Assembly (NCBI RefSeq): GCF_000425365.1
Contig: NZ_AUDH01000026.1
Location: 1-41,152 of the forward strand
From: Rubritepida flocculans DSM 14296
GTDB lineage: Bacteria; Pseudomonadota; Alphaproteobacteria; Acetobacterales; Acetobacteraceae
Length of the DNA stretch: 41,152 nucleotides
Direction: 5' to 3'
Shown: in pieces, positions 33,108-40,597 of the stretch
Layout of the letters: every line of letters starts with the position of its first letter
Position numbering within the stretch: the first letter of the stretch is position 1
Program-made: the position numbers and the translations under genes
Notes under the pieces: model-generated
The model's input: only the letters and a program-made list of their open reading frames with translations
Databases searched by the model: none
Told to the model about the DNA's origin: nothing

Positions 33108-34376
33108 TTATTGGGCTTTCTCGATCATCCCAGCATCGCCGGCGCCGCGCGCCGCCGCGATGTCGCCGAAGGTGCGGTCCTCGCCCTCCAGCACCGCGGC
33201 CTCGCCGGTCGCCTCCTGCCAGCGTCGGACGATGACATCGGCATAGGCCGGGTCGAGCTCGAGCAGCGCCGCCCGCCGCCCGGTCCGCTCCGCCGCGATC
33301 ATGGTCGTCCCGGAGCCGCCGAACGGGTCGAGCACGGTGTCGCGCTGCTTGCTGCTGTTGCGGATCGCCCGCTCGACCAGCGCGACGGGCTTCATCGTGG
33401 GATGCAGGTCGTTCCTGGCCGGCTTGTCGAAGTGCCAGACGTTGCCCTGGTCGCGGGCGCCGCACCAGTAGTGCTGCGCGCCGGCCTTCCAGCCGTAGAG
33501 CATCGCCTCGAACTGCTGGTGGTAGTCGGCGCGGCCGAGCGCGAAGGTGTTCTTCGCCCAGATGAGGGTGCTCGACCACTTGCCGCCGGCCTCCTGCCAG
33601 GCGCGGTGCAGCGTCGGCCACTCCGAGGAGGACATGCAGACGTAGCAGGCGCCCTTGGTGACCGAGAGCAGGTTGGCCAGCGCCGGGCGGAGGAAGTCGA
33701 GGAAGCCCTCGCCGAGCGCGTCGTTGGCGATGGTCATCCTGGCCGCGGTGCCGCCGCGGTAAGCGACGTTGTAGGGTGGGTCGGTGAAGGCCATGTCGGC
33801 GAGGCGATCGGCGCCGAGGGCGCGCTGCACATCGGCCAGCTTCGTGGCGTCGCCGCAGAGCAGGCGGTGCGCGCCGCAGCGCCAGAGGTCGCCTGGGCGG
33901 GCGACCGGCAGGGCGGGCGGTGGCGGGGCGTCGTCGGCGCCGTCCTCGTCGAGCCCGGCATCCGCCGCGGCCAGCAGACGGTCGAGCTCCATCCCTGTGA
34001 AGCCGAGCACGTCGAGGTCGACCGCCGCCTCGTCGCGGATGCGGGCGATCTCGGCGGCGAGCAGCGCCTCGTCCCACCCGGAGTTGAGCGCGATCTGGTT
34101 GTCGGCCAGGCGCAGGGCCCGGGCCTGCGCCTCGGTCAGGTGGGCAAGGCGGATCGCCGGCACCGCCACCATGCCGAGGCGCTTTGCGGCCATGACCCGG
34201 CCGTGGCCGGCCACCAGCACGCCGGCGGCGTCGACCAGCACCGGGTTGACGAAGCCGAACTCGGCGATCGAGGCGGCGATCTGCGCCACCTGCGCCTCGG
34301 AGTGGGTGCGGGCGTTCTCGGCGTAGGGGACCAGCGCCGCCACCGCCACGGTGGTGACCTGAAGCTCAGGCCGCAT
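33108..34376 (-). CDS. ParB-domain/DNA methyltransferase fusion (DPPY type)
   Basis: The 422-residue protein has an N-terminal ParB/sulfiredoxin-like domain (about residues 5-95: VPYAENARTHSEAQVAQI, GHGRVMAAKRLG) and a C-terminal amino-methyltransferase (about 160-405). The catalytic motif IV TDPPYNV comes before the SAM-binding motif I DPFGGSGTT, i.e. the beta-class order. It should methylate adenine N6 or cytosine N4 at a specific DNA site. No restriction gene is nearby, so it acts as an orphan phage enzyme, for example against host restriction or in packaging control. It overlaps the upstream methyltransferase gene by 11 bases. Confidence 0.92.
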   Translation of the reverse strand: MRPELQVTTVAVAALVPYAENARTHSEAQVAQIAASIAEFGFVNPVLVDAAGVLVAGHGRVMAAKRLGMVAVPAIRLAHLTEAQARALRLADNQIALNSGWDEALLAAEIARIRDEAAVDLDVLGFTGMELDRLLAAADAGLDEDGADDAPPPPALPVARPGDLWRCGAHRLLCGDATKLADVQRALGADRLADMAFTDPPYNVAYRGGTAARMTIANDALGEGFLDFLRPALANLLSVTKGACYVCMSSSEWPTLHRAWQEAGGKWSSTLIWAKNTFALGRADYHQQFEAMLYGWKAGAQHYWCGARDQGNVWHFDKPARNDLHPTMKPVALVERAIRNSSKQRDTVLDPFGGSGTTMIAAERTGRRAALLELDPAYADVIVRRWQEATGEAAVLEGEDRTFGDIAAARGAGDAGMIEKAQ

Positions 34377-35835
34377 CGGCCAGCGCCTCCGCGCGCGCCG
34401 CCGCGACGGCGTCGTAGTCCCGGCCGTCCTCCGCCAGCGTCACGGGCAGATCAGGGTGCAGCATGCGCCAGCGGGCGATGGCCAGGTCGACATAGGCTGG
34501 GGCGAGCTCGACGGCCCGCACCCGCCGCCCGGTGCGCTGGCCGGCGAGGAGCGTGGTGCCGGAGCCGGCGAAGGGCTCGAACACCGCCTCGCCCTCGTCC
34601 GTGTAAGCGCGCACCAGGAACTCGGGCAGCGCCACCGGGAAGACCGCCGGGTGCTCGGTCTCGATGCCCCGGCCCTTGTGGCGGGTGATGCGGAGCACGC
34701 TATCCGGGATGCGGCTCTCCTGCACCGGCAGGCCGATATGGGTGTAGGCCTTCACCTCGCCGTCGGCGGCGCGCAGGCCGCTGCCCTTGTTCGGGGTGCC
34801 GGCCCACTTGCAGGGCACGATCTTGTTCGGCTGGCGCGCCTCGCGGTTGAGGTGGAACACCAGCTCGAAGGCCGGCGCGAGGCGGCCATTCCAATCCCCC
34901 GGCAGGCCCGGGCCCTGATCCCAGGCATAGAGGCCGAACCGCCGCCAGCCCTGGGCACGCATCCAGTCGAGCCAGCCGGACCAGTACGGCAGCCACTCCC
35001 CGTCGCGGTGGATCAGGCCGAGGTTCACCAGCGCCTGGCCGTCGTCCCGCAGGATCAGCGGCAGATGCTGGAACACGCCCCGCATCAGGGCATCCCAGTC
35101 GGAGACGCCACCGGTGGTGTAGTCGCGCTGGTTGCCGTAGGGCGGGCTGGTGAACAGCAGCGCCGCGCGGTCCTCGCCCATGACGCGGGCGACGGTGGCG
35201 GCGTCGGTGCTGTCGCCGCAGAGCAGGCGATGCTCGCCGAGCAGCCAGAGATCGCCGGGGCGGGTGACGGCCTGGCGCGGGGCGTCGGGTTCGGCGTCGG
35301 CGGGATCATCCGCCGGCGCCTCGTCCATCTCCGCCGCGCCGGGCGCGCCACCGCCGCCGGCCTCCGGCTGATCCGCCTCCTCGGGCGCTTCGCCATCAAC
35401 GACGGCCGCATCCGCCGCCGCGAGGATTGCGGTCAGCTCGTCCGCCGAGAAGCCGAGCATGGCCACGTCGATCTCCGCGGCGGCCTGCACACCGGCCAGG
35501 GCCTCTCGCAGCAGCGCCTGGTCCCAGGTGGCGTTCTCCGCAATGCGGTTGTCTGCGAGCCGGAGCGCGTCCTTCTGCGCCGGCGAGAGGTGGCGCAGTA
35601 CGATCACCGGCACCCGTTCGATGCCGAGCGCCATGGCCGCCTCGAGCCGGCCATGGCCGGCGATCAGCACGCCGGCCTCATCCACCAGCAGCGGGTTGGT
35701 GAAGCCGAAGGCCAGCATGCTGGCCTTGATCTGCTCGAGCTGCGCCGCACCATGCACCCGGGCATTGCCGCGGTGGGCGCGCAGATCCGCCACCGGGCGC
35801 AGCAGGATCTTCGCCGCCATCCAGGGGAGCGTCAT
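34366..35835 (-). CDS. ParB-domain/DNA methyltransferase fusion (TSPPY type)
   Basis: The 489-residue protein has the same architecture as its downstream neighbour: ParB-like domain (about 8-100, LRAHRGNARVHGAAQLEQI, GHGRLEAAMALG), an acidic Ala/Pro/Asp linker (about 145-195) and a methyltransferase (about 200-460) with motif IV LFTSPPYGNQRDY before motif I EPFAGSGTT. The TSPPY variant is common among N4-cytosine enzymes but not diagnostic. The pair probably arose by duplication and has diverged in catalytic motif, so it likely recognises different sites. The ATG at 35835 has GGATGG upstream. It is first in a transcript starting in the 359-base spacer with repeated GGTGCGAACC elements. Confidence 0.92.
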   Translation of the reverse strand: MTLPWMAAKILLRPVADLRAHRGNARVHGAAQLEQIKASMLAFGFTNPLLVDEAGVLIAGHGRLEAAMALGIERVPVIVLRHLSPAQKDALRLADNRIAENATWDQALLREALAGVQAAAEIDVAMLGFSADELTAILAAADAAVVDGEAPEEADQPEAGGGGAPGAAEMDEAPADDPADAEPDAPRQAVTRPGDLWLLGEHRLLCGDSTDAATVARVMGEDRAALLFTSPPYGNQRDYTTGGVSDWDALMRGVFQHLPLILRDDGQALVNLGLIHRDGEWLPYWSGWLDWMRAQGWRRFGLYAWDQGPGLPGDWNGRLAPAFELVFHLNREARQPNKIVPCKWAGTPNKGSGLRAADGEVKAYTHIGLPVQESRIPDSVLRITRHKGRGIETEHPAVFPVALPEFLVRAYTDEGEAVFEPFAGSGTTLLAGQRTGRRVRAVELAPAYVDLAIARWRMLHPDLPVTLAEDGRDYDAVAAARAEALADAA

Positions 35836-36755: not shown

Positions 36756-36966
36756 GCCTTCCCTCGCGCCGCCCCCAGCGCCGGTTGGCTTCGTTGGTGA
36801 CGGCCTGGCGCAGCCAGGCGTCGGCGATGTCGTCCACCGACAGGGCGGCGACGCCGTGCCGGTGCCAGGCGGCGGCGCGCAGGGCGTCGATCTCCAGCGC
36901 GGAGGCCGGGCTGCGTGCCAGGTCCAGACACGACCGGGGCGGGCGCGGCGAACCGGCGAGCCTCAT
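36739..36966 (-). CDS. Small unknown phage protein
   Basis: The 75-residue basic protein has no domain I recognise. The core 'SALEIDALRAAAWHRHGVAALSVDDIADAWLRQAVTNEANRRWG' looks helical and is a plausible gene product. The start at 36966 is in an ATGA overlap with the RuvC-like gene, and its stop is inside the DUF6456 start region. This tight packing supports it as a real gene of the replication operon. Confidence 0.6.
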   Translation of the reverse strand: MRLAGSPRPPRSCLDLARSPASALEIDALRAAAWHRHGVAALSVDDIADAWLRQAVTNEANRRWGRREGRHAHGR

Positions 36967-37511
36967 GCCCGGCCTCCCGAGGATTCGGTGGCCCAGAGCA
37001 GCAGGGCGATGGCATCGGCCTCGTTGTCGTCGGCCGGTGTGAAGCCGCGGGCGCACATGGCGGCGACCATCGCCGCCTTGTCGGCGTTGCCCCTGCCGGT
37101 GGCAAAGCGCCTGATCGTGCCGACCGGCACGCCCTCATAGGCGATGCCGCGCTCCTCGCACCAGGCGGCGAGGTGGGCGAGGAAGCCGCCGTAGAGATGC
37201 GCCGCGTCCGTGCCGGCGTGGGCCCGTACCTCCTCGAAGGCAATACGCGCCAAGCCGCCCGAGAGGTCGGAGACCTCAGCCAGCCAGCCGCGGAAGCGCA
37301 GGAAGCGCATGCCGCCGCCTTCGAACCGGCTCGGCCTGAAGGTCACGGTGCCGGAGGTGATGCCACCGTCGCGGCGGCGCAGCGCCCAGCCGGTGGTGGT
37401 GCCGAGGTCGAGGGCGAGGACGGCGTGGCGGTCGAGCGCGAGGGCCGGCGGCGTGGCAACGGTCGGGCCGCTTGCCGGCGTGGCGGGCATGGGGGAAGTC
37501 GCAGGAGCCAT
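36963..37511 (-). CDS. RuvC-like Holliday-junction nuclease (phage)
   Basis: The 182-residue protein has the RNase H-like fold pattern of phage crossover-junction endonucleases. The first catalytic Asp is in LALDLGTTTGWAL (about residue 34), a Glu pair in IAFEEVRAH (about 90) and the terminal acidic motif in DDNEADAIALLLW (about 165). It resolves branched DNA made during phage replication or recombination. The ATG at 37511 has GGAGATC upstream; the longer frame to 37640 has a Pro/Arg-rich, non-conserved leader and is rejected. It lies 125 bases downstream of the primase-helicase gene. Confidence 0.8.
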   Translation of the reverse strand: MAPATSPMPATPASGPTVATPPALALDRHAVLALDLGTTTGWALRRRDGGITSGTVTFRPSRFEGGGMRFLRFRGWLAEVSDLSGGLARIAFEEVRAHAGTDAAHLYGGFLAHLAAWCEERGIAYEGVPVGTIRRFATGRGNADKAAMVAAMCARGFTPADDNEADAIALLLWATESSGGRA

Positions 37512-37636
37512 GGGATCTCCGAGAGGGGATCGTCGTGGTGAGGGCGGTGGCGCGGTCCTTGGCGGAACTCGCCGTCGCCGCCCGGCTGGGTGAGGCGCAT
37601 CCGCTTCGGGCGGCCCGCGGCTGTTCGGACGGCGCA

Positions 37637-40597
37637 TCACGGCACCCCGTCCAGCCAGGTGGGCTCCGTCACGGGCCTGGTGGATGTCCGTGGATGTGCG
37701 GCTTGACCCTCACCGGCACATTCACCGGCGGAAACCGGCGGATTGCCTGGGACCGGTGAATGTCGTGAATGTGGTGGATGTTGTTCCGTCTCTTCCCTCA
37801 TGGGCGCGCGCGCGTGCGCGCACGCGTGGGCATGGGAAGAACATTCACGACATTCACGAGGCCCGAGGAAGCCTCGGTTTTCCGCTGAGTTTCGCCCGTG
37901 AATGTTGGCAGACGCACATTCACCGACATTCACGGCGGGCCAAACATTCACGGGGTCAGCACCTCGCGCTGAAAGTGGTGGATGTTCGTCCGTGCCTCCG
38001 TCCTGGGACGGCTTCAGCCGCCACCGCCCGGCGCCCTGGTAGGTGCCTGCGGCCTCGACATGGAGGCTGCGCTGGCCGATGCGGAAGACGCGGTCGCGCA
38101 GCTTGCTGAGGGCCTTGCCGAGCCGGATGCGCTGCGAGCGGTCGTTGCCGGGTCCGAGCGGCAGGGGTGGCTCGACCTGGATGGCGACGCCGTAGAGGTC
38201 TGTGATGCCGACCTCGGCACTGCCGAACCGATCCCACCAGGCGGAGACAAGGCTGCGCCAGGTCGCCCCCTCGCCATCGGACGCCGTCATCGTCTCGTCC
38301 AGGTTGCCGAGAAAGCCCTCGAGCCCGGCCACCTCCAGCACGCCGCCGATGGTCTGTGCCCAGGCTTCGTAGCTGCCAATGCTCCGGCGCCCGCGCGGAC
38401 GGCCGGCGGCGACCCAGGCGCGGCAGAGGGTGAGGCAGGCGGAGACCAGCCTCGCACGGTTCGTGCGCACCCACCCCATCAGGTCGGGATGGCGGAAGCC
38501 GTCGCGCCGCCAGGGCTGGTCGGTTCGGGCGTCGAGGCGGATGCGGACGAGGCGGCGGGCGATCTCGTGCGAGACGGCCGGGTTGTTGCCGGTGGCGACC
38601 CAGGCGCAGCGCACCGGCAGGCGGACCATGTCCGAGGCGCCGAGCACGCGGTCCTCCCAGAGGGGGGCGGTCAGCGCCGCGGCGAGGGCGGAGCTGTCGA
38701 GCTCCTGGCGGAGGTTGTCGATCAGCAGCAGGGTCGGCAGCTGGCGCAGCTTGGCGGTGAGCCGCTTGCGCCACTCGTCCTCGTCGCGGCCCTCGGTCAT
38801 GACGGCAGCGCCCGAGCCGGTGAGGATGGTGGCGATGGCGTCCACCATGAGGGTGGCGCCGGTGCCGGGCGTGGGCTTCTCGATCATGTGCAGCGGCGTC
38901 GGCCCGTCGATCATCGGCCGCACGAAGCCGAGCAGCAGCAGGGCGAGGGCGTGGGCACGCTCGGCCTCTCCGGTGAAGGGGAAGTCGCCGAGCAGCTCGC
39001 CGAGCAGGAGGCTGCGCGCGGCAGCGATCTCGGCCGCCGTCGGCCGGTCCGGCACCGGCGGCAGCACGAATCCCGGCGGCGGTCGGTAGAGCAGCCGCGC
39101 GTCGGGATGGTAGCCAGGCTCGGTCAGCAGCGTGCCGGCCCGGCCGAACACCGGCGCCGTGACGATCCCCGCCAGCACCGGCAGCGCCGGATCAGGGGTG
39201 GCGACGAGGGACTTCACCAGGCCGGTGGGCGGCGGTGCCGGGACCAGGTCGCCCTTGGCGTTGAGCCTTCGCCAGTCGGCGAGCTTCGCCAGCATGTGCC
39301 GCAGGCGCTCCTCGCGCACGGTGACCGCGACGGGGCGGCCGTCATCGTCGGGCACGACCCAGGACGGCTCGCCACCGAGCCGGAACAGCCAGGGCGAGCG
39401 GTTCGCCGACAGCACGAGACCCCAGGCACGGGCGGTGGCGCGGTCGAGATTGCCCTCGTCGGCGCGAACGGTCGGCAGCGGATGCGCTGGCTCCACGAAG
39501 CCGATGGGCAGGTGGCGGCCGGTTTCCGGCTCCTCGGGCGCAACGTCGGCGCTGCTGGGCTGCCGCATCGCCGCATCGACCAGCGCCGCGATCGGCCCCG
39601 GCCCCTCGCGCAACAGCATGTCGTTGAAGTCGTCGCCCAGGGTCGGAGGCAGCGCGATCGCGACCTGCCTGCCCTCGAGGCGGAGCTTGGCGGCGGCGGC
39701 TTCGGCGGCGCGGAGCCCGGCGCCGGAGGCGTCGTGGTCGGCGAGGATGACCACGCTCCGCGCCTCCGGCGGCAGGTGCGCCTGCTCGAGGCCGCTGGTG
39801 GAGAGCGCCGCCCAGACCGGCAGGCCGGGGCAGGCCAGCATGGCGGCGAGGCCGGTCTCGATGCCCTCGCAGAGCCCGAGCACGCCGGCCGGGCCGATCG
39901 GGGCGAGGCGCACCGTGCCGCCGCCGCTCCGGCCGAGCACCATGCGCGGCTTCGGGATATCGGCCTTGCGGACGGTCCCACCGTCCTCCCGGAGGTAGGT
40001 GCGATGCACCGCCACCACCTCGCCGGCGCGGTTGCGCACCAGCCCGACCATCGCCGGATAGCCGGCGCGGGTCTCGAAATGCGCGAGGTCGGGATGGAAC
40101 AGCAGATCCGCGCCGTCCGGCACGGCGAGGCCGCGGCCCTGCAGGTAGCGCTCCGCCGCCGTGCCCTGGATCGGCTGCGCGTGCTCCAGGATGAAGGCGA
40201 TGTCGCGGGCGGCGTCGCGCTCCGGCTTCGGTGCCGGCGGTGGTTCCAGGCGCGCCGGGCCTTCGCCCGTCCAGCCGGTCATCTCGGCCGCCCGCGCGAA
40301 CAGCGCCCGGTCGGCGAGGCCGGTGCCGTGCGCGAGCGTGGACAGCGGCCCGCCGCCCTCATCACCATCGAAGTCGTGCCAGTCGCCGGCATGCTCGCCG
40401 CGCAGCATGATCACGCAGGAGCCGGAGCGGCGCGGCGGATCGCCCTGGATGTTGGCCAGCCGCCATTCGTCGCCCTGGCGCCGGCCGTTGGGGAAGAGCC
40501 CCGGCACCCAGGCATGGGCGGTGTCGCGCAGGCGCTGGACGATGGCCTCGAGGTCGTAGCGGGAAGGCGCGACCGTCGCGTCATTCAGGTCAATCAA
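37637..40597 (-). CDS. Phage primase-helicase with TOPRIM domain
   Basis: The 986-residue replication protein has an N-terminal primase-associated part (about 1-230, 'GRRQGDEWRLANIQGD', 'DWHDFDGDEGGGPLSTLAHG'), a TOPRIM domain (about 235-320) with LCEGIETGLAAML and VVILADHDASGAG, a helicase/ATPase-like region (about 540-800) and a tail (about 860-986). The expected P-loop reads KPTPGTGATLMVDA (about 575-588), with no Lys after the glycines, while LLLIDNLRQE resembles Walker B, so ATP hydrolysis needs testing. The start appears to be TTG at 40597, overlapping the helicase stop by 8 bases; the next in-frame Met lies about 60 codons in, inside conserved sequence. The tail's coding DNA holds the ACATTCAC repeats. 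Confidence 0.88.
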   Translation of the reverse strand: MIDLNDATVAPSRYDLEAIVQRLRDTAHAWVPGLFPNGRRQGDEWRLANIQGDPPRRSGSCVIMLRGEHAGDWHDFDGDEGGGPLSTLAHGTGLADRALFARAAEMTGWTGEGPARLEPPPAPKPERDAARDIAFILEHAQPIQGTAAERYLQGRGLAVPDGADLLFHPDLAHFETRAGYPAMVGLVRNRAGEVVAVHRTYLREDGGTVRKADIPKPRMVLGRSGGGTVRLAPIGPAGVLGLCEGIETGLAAMLACPGLPVWAALSTSGLEQAHLPPEARSVVILADHDASGAGLRAAEAAAAKLRLEGRQVAIALPPTLGDDFNDMLLREGPGPIAALVDAAMRQPSSADVAPEEPETGRHLPIGFVEPAHPLPTVRADEGNLDRATARAWGLVLSANRSPWLFRLGGEPSWVVPDDDGRPVAVTVREERLRHMLAKLADWRRLNAKGDLVPAPPPTGLVKSLVATPDPALPVLAGIVTAPVFGRAGTLLTEPGYHPDARLLYRPPPGFVLPPVPDRPTAAEIAAARSLLLGELLGDFPFTGEAERAHALALLLLGFVRPMIDGPTPLHMIEKPTPGTGATLMVDAIATILTGSGAAVMTEGRDEDEWRKRLTAKLRQLPTLLLIDNLRQELDSSALAAALTAPLWEDRVLGASDMVRLPVRCAWVATGNNPAVSHEIARRLVRIRLDARTDQPWRRDGFRHPDLMGWVRTNRARLVSACLTLCRAWVAAGRPRGRRSIGSYEAWAQTIGGVLEVAGLEGFLGNLDETMTASDGEGATWRSLVSAWWDRFGSAEVGITDLYGVAIQVEPPLPLGPGNDRSQRIRLGKALSKLRDRVFRIGQRSLHVEAAGTYQGAGRWRLKPSQDGGTDEHPPLSARGADPVNVWPAVNVGECASANIHGRNSAENRGFLGPRECRECSSHAHACAHARAPMREETEQHPPHSRHSPVPGNPPVSAGECAGEGQAAHPRTSTRPVTEPTWLDGVP
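37680..37985. repeat. ACATTCAC iteron-like array with central palindrome (candidate phage origin)
   Basis: Exact ACATTCAC occurs at 37718, 37841, 37850, 37916, 37926 and 37944 and its complement GTGAATGT at 37756, 37765 and 37898. One-base variants GTGGATGT are at 37680, 37690, 37774 and 37978. In the middle lies a strictly alternating purine-pyrimidine tract (37804-37828) containing a 16-bp palindrome at 37811-37826. It is flanked by inverted TCTTCCC/GGGAAGA and by iteron clusters pointing in opposite directions. The whole array is inside the 3' end of the primase-helicase gene. Function as replication origin is inferred. Confidence 0.6.

Follow-up and report, generated by a model that had tools for sequence, protein, structure and literature searches.

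In phage lambda, the origin of replication consists of iterons located inside the gene of the initiator O, a protein that is not a primase-helicase, and the geminivirus Rep protein, a rolling-circle Rep, represents a different kind of initiator. The closest described systems are those of P4 and of the SaPI and SCCmec elements. In the part of PMC4234260 that was available, P4 alpha is presented as a Toprim primase that binds its own repeats through a winged helix, and the available part of PMC7581432 (citing Ubeda 2007) states that in SaPI Rep/ori and SCCmec Cch2 the C-terminal domain of the initiator helicase recognises short iterons directly downstream of the gene. The present work deals with an array of octamers within a primase-helicase gene of Rubritepida flocculans DSM 14296, in a stretch of 41,152 nucleotides (contig NZ_AUDH01000026.1) that is called the window throughout. 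Comparison of this array with those of its relatives leads to the view, held here with a probability of roughly 0.8, that the primase-helicase binds the octamers via a C-terminal winged helix and that the array is its replication origin. An earlier, sequence-only reading had proposed that the primase-helicase or a partner binds the octamers at a candidate origin, a proposal that the comparison strongly supports through the arrays of 127/127 loci, the covariation with the C-terminal domain and the prediction of octamers by a frozen code.

The octamer ACATTCAC/GTGAATGT has nine exact copies in the window, every one of them within 37718-37951, whereas 0.26 exact copies of ACATTCAC are expected by chance in the whole window and nine were reached in none of 100 dinucleotide shuffles. 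Four one-base variants, each of them ACATCCAC, lie inside the array at 37680, 37690, 37774 and 37978, and the six other one-mismatch sites of ACATTCAC are dispersed over the remaining window. The recount agrees with the sequence-only reading, which had given nine exact octamers and four one-base variants within 37680-37985, and the 9- and 10-base spacings (37756/37765/37774; 37841/37850; 37916/37926) are also as claimed there. When paired octamers one base apart were searched for in the whole genome, the array was the sole place found at up to one mismatch, with one more at two. The array lies within the final ~120 codons of the primase-helicase gene, whose earlier call (37637-40597, minus strand, 986 codons) was correct, with DUF7146, Toprim_3 and phrog_10537 matches.

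Octamer counts and the relatives' arrays together delimit the candidate origin to 37680..37985, within the open tail of the gene. Two ACATTCAC copies on the plus strand (37841 and 37850; 37841..37857) form one arm of a dyad, as judged from their positions and the shared layout, and three copies on the minus strand with a 9-bp period (37756 and 37765 exact, 37774 with one mismatch; 37756..37781) form the opposite arm. Layout comparison places between them a centre of 59 bp (37782..37840), where a window-wide run search located a Z-DNA-like tract of 25 bp in which purines and pyrimidines alternate (37804..37828), the longest in the 41 kb window (the runner-up has 14 bp). The outer copies, again from the octamer positions, are 37898 on the minus strand with 37916 and 37926 on the plus strand (37898..37933), one at 37944..37951 (plus) and one at 37718..37725 (plus). 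The one-mismatch search adds, on the minus strand, the two ACATCCAC variants at the 3' end of the array in gene orientation (37680 and 37690; 37680..37697) and another at its 5' end (37978..37985). Neither the alternating tract in the array centre nor the dyad layout shared with relatives was mentioned in the earlier reading.

Between array copies, at 37862-37882, an inverted repeat (CCGAGG-AAG-CCTCGG) followed by TTTT was spotted by eye; it could represent a plus-strand terminator. The array region has no Rfam match at the gathering threshold, and a reading as an RNA family was rejected for that reason.

Relatives were gathered in scans that yielded 45 viral loci and then the best 80 of 93 genome relatives and the best 80 of 185 viral relatives. 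The 202 loci (L005-L206) were reduced to 159 near full-length ones, with partial matches and already-seen contigs removed by hand, and these to 135 distinct loci; the removal of two with an internal stop (L070, L101) and six with less than 300 nt downstream left 127, among them the window's own copy (L005). Loci with the same octamer and 85% domain identity were merged into 57 representatives, and L095, L108 and L122, whose octamer register is uncertain, were excluded from the covariation sets. A viral scan with L122 gave no match, and family searches around G122, G287 and G097 gave no further loci.

In all 127 loci an octamer is repeated exactly 5-15 times in the 450 nt following the C-terminal domain, above all 100 shuffles at each locus, while control stretches give counts of 2 or 3 inside the gene (127 loci) and 1-4 downstream (100/101). 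The one remaining downstream control, in L022, gives 8 copies, which belong to a second, distinct repeat, GGAGTCCA, at +1500 to +1950 past the domain, downstream of the array. For the idea that the cluster arose by chance or by an assembly artefact no supporting point was found, and it is refuted by the shuffle counts and by the presence of arrays in 127/127 loci from many separate assemblies, which leaves it practically no probability.

The octamer is lineage-specific. Without the three loci of uncertain register there are 26 types, and 28 when the test loci described below are included, which with few exceptions follow one register (A1, C/G/T2, any base at 3, T/C4, T/C5, C6, A/C7, C8). Bases A1, C6 and C8 are nearly invariant, base 8 varying in just 2 of the 57 representatives, and ACGGTCAC of L019 is the sole type with G4. 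The base that follows the octamer, base 9, was seen to be often A, C or G, in a manner specific to the octamer type (127 loci). Conservation of the octamers at the DNA level between homologues, which the sequence-only reading had put forward as a check, does not hold: the octamer changes, and what is kept is the layout and the match between protein and octamer. Homologues that keep the tail peptide and lose the octamers, the finding that would have spoken against an origin, did not appear, given that the three compared pairs with different octamers each retain an array (29-69% DNA identity in the ~290 nt after the domain). Among remoter relatives, a Streptomyces plasmid carries TCCCTGCA eight times and a Methanosarcinales virus TACCCGCA nine times, in both cases just 3' of the gene; in the archaeal virus and the Streptomyces plasmid (L376, L377) the array is interrupted by a gap of ~90 bp, in which no alternating tract reaches a length of 12.

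Despite the change of octamer between lineages, the spacing between copies is conserved. The commonest order, in gene orientation and with the number of bases between copies, is < 12 < 9 > 30 < 1 < 1 < 56 > 1 > 1 > 30 < 4 < 8 >, whose core is a dyad of triple repeats about a centre of 50-68 bp. At least five of the six core copies (each with one mismatch at most), at an exact period of 9 and around a centre of 50-68 bp, were found in 52/57 representatives and 116/127 loci, and the window shows a variant of this layout in which one arm has two copies and the centre measures 59 bp. Limits could be set for a centre of 50-80 bp in 54 of the 57 representatives; its longest alternating purine/pyrimidine run has a median of 27 bp (range 8-36) and reaches at least 16 in 43/54, whereas in controls of the same length the median is 6, with maxima of 7 inside the gene and 14 downstream. 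Mean G+C is 0.55-0.61 across the 300 nt of the array and 0.61-0.73 outside it, and the centre itself carries the alternating GC-rich tract.

The reading frame of the gene continues open over 297 nt past the domain in 124/127 loci, whereas the other five frames do so in 0, 11, 22, 23 and 41. Its stop overlaps an ATG in 107/127 loci, compared with 33% when every stop triplet of these loci is counted; the overlap was counted on ATG only, as GTG and TTG (123/127 when allowed) are frequent by chance. The open reading frame (ORF) that begins at this overlap has at least 100 codons in 65 of the 116 loci whose ORF end is covered. The open frame and the stop/start overlap indicate that the array sits inside a frame that is kept open, as a predicted tail, in the manner of iterons inside an initiator gene, and perhaps the frame is kept because the next gene is translationally coupled. 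A frame so generally open could also be taken to mean that the octamers reflect a repeated amino-acid sequence in the protein tail, but the copies occur in both orientations and in all three codon phases of the gene, a point on which the sequence-only reading was right, their spacings are not multiples of three, and the octamer varies between lineages at conserved spacing. The phases and orientations refute this explanation, which is hardly credible.

The identity of the octamer follows the C-terminal ~100 residues of the gene product and not the remaining protein. Octamer distance correlates at 0.49 with C-terminal distance, at 0.12 with the distance over residues 1-700 and at 0.79 with that over five residues of the domain. 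The window and L006 have 96% identity in residues 1-700, 46% in the domain and different octamers; the window and L014 have 82% in residues 1-700, 98% in the domain and a common octamer. At the DNA level the window and L006 are 87-100% identical as far as a point ~400 nt upstream of the end of the domain; within the domain the identity is 56-71%, between its end and the far side of the array 29-58%, and past the array 72-89%, except for 35% in the final, truncated block. Since this identity falls over domain and array and is high on either side, comparison indicates that the two are swapped as one cassette.

Mutual information was computed over whole-protein columns with at most 30% gaps in the 57 representatives, and for each informative variable base the top column lies in the C-terminal domain, one column for each base: base 2 with residue 828, base 3 with 824, base 4 with 820, base 5 with 856 and base 7 with 854. 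Lysine 828 goes with C2 in 23/25 and methionine with G2 in 12/12; threonine 824 goes with G3 in 32/33, isoleucine with A3 in only 10/15 and valine with C3 in 5/9; arginine 820 goes with T4 in 30/31 and histidine with C4 in 9/9; alanine 856 goes with T5 in 44/45, and histidine 854 with C7 in 33/34. In 38 disjoint nearest pairs (76 loci), from which L247, with a domain identity of 0.49, was excluded (it was retained in the test), each code residue ranks 1 of 100 for its own base, with phi of 0.51-0.73. With training loci of 60% or more domain identity left out, the one-residue rule reads bases 2, 3, 4, 5 and 7 in 41, 45, 44, 50 and 55 of 57 (no call in 9, 0, 10, 6 and 1), compared with 28, 26, 43, 38 and 25 when the nearest neighbour is used instead.

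The code was fixed in writing before the test scans. Later loci gave 152 domain hits, of which 92 had an array identical to one in training, 6 were short, 6 were duplicates and 4 lacked the domain end, which left 44. The whole octamer was predicted correctly in 39/44, a figure that includes loci above 85% domain identity, which are close kin of training loci and weak evidence, and that comes from a set enriched in well-read types by the removal of the 92 hits; below 85% it was predicted in 17/20. The nearest neighbour gives 36/44 and 12/20 and the commonest octamer 13/44 and 10/20; when predictions are shuffled among the 20 loci below 85%, 5.2 are correct on average and never more than 12 in 10,000 rounds. 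The array DNA of four loci (L246, L289, L355, L370) was in loci fetched before the freeze, outside the training set and unused; without them the result is 36/40 and 16/19. Octamers absent from training were predicted in 3/3 cases (ACATCCCC in L323; ACGTCCCC in L370 and L371, L370 being one of the four just named).

Another phage protein might bind the octamers, and the link to the C-terminal domain would then be hitch-hiking from adjacency and joint swapping. Domain and array are indeed exchanged together, so linkage alone yields some correlation. Linkage nonetheless predicts no per-base rule, while five separate residues, one for each base, rank first of 100 in disjoint pairs and the code predicts combinations absent from training; we consider this alternative very improbable.

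Structural models are consistent with recognition by the primase-helicase itself. An AlphaFold2 model of residues 700-861 (65 sequences) contains blocks with a predicted local distance difference test (pLDDT) score of 81-94 across the last 82 residues, with a secondary structure that fits a winged helix. Residues 820, 824 and 828 lie one turn apart on a helix at 819-833, and the last strand has residue 856 at its beginning and residue 854 in the turn that leads into it; in the model, this arrangement is that of a winged helix. The helicase part resembles a D5/SF3 fold, as judged from a model of residues 395-861 (pLDDT 76.4, including a badly modelled stretch). Foldseek found for it 25 matches at E <= 0.001, mostly AsfvPrimPol, D5, MPXV E5 and PriRep1 (probability 0.84-1.0), and among D5/SF3 primase-helicases it also resembles NrS-1; the matches have E of 1e-4 to 1e-3 with query template modelling (TM) scores of just 0.29-0.38, and ORC and other AAA+ proteins match at similar E with lower TM. 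Sequence homology to solved structures was not found (best E 0.24 and 0.7).

Several observations, together with the two properties of the test set just described, weigh against binding by the C-terminal domain at an origin. Applied to the training loci themselves, the frozen rule recovers complete octamers in no more than 41/57 representatives and 92/124 loci, although the single bases 2, 3, 4, 5 and 7 are right in 54, 47, 54, 56 and 56 of 57. Base 3 accounts for most of the misses, for instance in the types AGACCCCC, AGTCCCCC and ACTCCCCC; this base is predicted worst because valine 824 and some isoleucine 824 pair with A, T or C. The octamer ACCTCCCC (L089 and L121, with Q820, T824 and A856) violates the code at bases 3, 4 and 5. 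Of the 44 test loci five fail: base 2 is wrong in L247 and L293, which have leucine 828, and base 3 in L359, L246 and L253, the last two being of the AGACCCCC type, whose base 3 rule had already failed in training. The remote locus L247 has only four octamer copies, and in Ruegeria phage RpAliso, phiCbK, a Methylobacterium plasmid and L248-L252 no octamer exceeds four copies in any 450-nt window. The C-terminal model is moderate (mean pLDDT 74.9, predicted TM-score 0.53), and its Foldseek search gave many winged helices (forkhead, MarR-like, ORC) among the 50 matches listed of 187, the best E listed being 0.82. Profile similarity to P4 alpha was not detectable by hhalign, either for the helicase or for the origin-binding domain (probability 0.1 and 0.3%), for which reason the resemblance to P4 is, by analogy, a likeness of working and not shown membership. 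Finally, the Walker A lysine is replaced by alanine at residue 581 (38855-38857, minus strand) in 127/127 loci, which means that helicase activity is not assured; the region reads KPTPGTGATLM in 90/127 loci, with an upstream lysine at 574 in at least 126, and the usual GK is retained in Streptomyces and Methylobacterium relatives.

The mechanism we propose starts from an initiator in which a Toprim primase would be fused to a D5/SF3-like helicase, with the origin in the open 3' end of its own gene. The C-terminal winged helix would read the octamer, with bases 2, 3 and 4 set from the recognition helix by residues 828, 824 and 820, and bases 5 and 7 from the wing by residues 856 and 854. The copies bound on both arms of the dyad would give two helicase assemblies flanking the centre, which would be melted between them and then primed; the alternating GC tract may aid melting by flipping to the Z-form. 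We infer direct contact, the firing of the origin, the two assemblies and the role of the centre. The array is a candidate origin because of its layout, its position in the primase-helicase gene and its likeness to P4 and SaPI.

The same protein could also bind the array as a copy-control, regulatory or partition site and not as the replication start. The comparative evidence for binding applies equally to this alternative, ParB-like genes are nearby, and the annotation of P4 distinguishes one octamer cluster, crr, from another that belongs to the origin. The window, whose phage part runs off the contig end, holds no second octamer cluster, in the DNA examined for the 127 loci exact copies outside the array never number more than two, and a dyad built around a distinctive centre suits an origin. 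A site of this kind seems unlikely to us, though less so than the other alternatives, and replication origin is the reading we prefer.

A broader interpretation, which we offer tentatively and with rather less than even odds, is that these loci form a natural collection of origin-initiator pairs that exclude one another, with a nearly one-residue-per-base code and a swappable cassette, diversified so that co-resident prophages avoid cross-firing and opening at a Z-DNA-forming centre that is not A+T-rich. Seven genomes with two or more copies of the gene were noticed among the sampled loci, with no systematic search of genomes; five have all-different octamers and two the same (one of them with a stop inside one copy). 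The genome of the window has a second copy at a contig end (L234, G000:C51:1-2273), with octamer AGACCCCC in place of ACATTCAC. Different octamers in co-resident copies fit exclusion between prophages, in numbers too few to prove it. Work on initiator-origin matching usually deals with a single pair, and here at least 28 octamer types come with their cognate domains. Five residues often suffice for the rule to predict the octamer, which makes recognition, co-resident exclusion and cassette exchange directly testable, and a large group of prophages in alphaproteobacteria gains predicted origins. Also at issue is how an alternating tract rich in GC can do the work expected of an A+T-rich element. 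In the open-access literature, searched by title and start of abstract, nothing was found that describes the present family or a code of this sort in a winged helix that binds an origin.

According to profile matches and structure models, the primase-helicase gene (37637..40597, minus strand, as are the features listed next, down to 33108) encodes the DUF7146 and Toprim_3 primase part at residues 130-333 (39599..40210, by profile match; Toprim_3 E 6e-20), which puts Toprim primase and helicase in one protein, a D5/SF3-like helicase part at residues ~396-700 (38498..39412, from the phrog_10537 match and the model), the predicted C-terminal winged helix and the open tail. Covariation and the model place the C-terminal domain, the proposed octamer binder, at residues 762-861 (38015..38314), its predicted recognition helix at 819-833 (38099..38143), where R820, I824 and K828 track bases 4, 3 and 2, and its predicted wing tip at 853-856 (38030..38041), where Q854 and A856 track bases 7 and 5. 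From the ORF reading, the stop TGA (37639-37637) overlaps a possible next start, GTG at 37640 or ATG at 37637 (37635..37640), and the next gene encodes a RuvC-like resolvase (36963..37640, phrog_159 match). Further along, at 33108-35835, two adjoining genes were each seen to consist of a ParB-like part fused to a DNA methyltransferase (phrog_498, phrog_620). Phage genes were seen from a terminase at 28.9 kb to the contig end, and the tested genes of 1-28000 look chromosomal (Na/H exchanger, Usp, alcohol dehydrogenase, P-type ATPase, antiporter-like).

Among known systems, the parallel with lambda drawn by the sequence-only reading stands as regards the candidate origin inside the gene, a feature common to both, as the octamers lie here inside the open frame of the initiator gene (124/127 loci), but P4 alpha/crr and SaPI Rep/ori are better parallels. 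In P4 (NC_001609), as here, Toprim primase and helicase are found in one protein, and octamers annotated as 'ori type 1 repeat' occur in both orientations, some of them 9 bp apart, directly 3' of alpha. In the present register, bases 2-9 of the P4 octamer TGTTCACC are T-G-T-T-C-A-C-C, and L083 has ATGTTCAC. The P4 repeats differ in that they lie past the gene and an annotated terminator, and also in a separate origin cluster, whereas here they are inside an open frame. The likeness to SaPI lies in the helicase model, which matches the structures 7pds (E 3e-4) and 7ola (E 1e-3), and the difference in the primase, which is of the archaeo-eukaryotic type in those systems (in the available part of PMC7581432, which mentions no per-base code) and Toprim in the present gene. 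This is a known kind of system in a new form, with the proposed origin inside an open frame and with domain and array swapping as a cassette.

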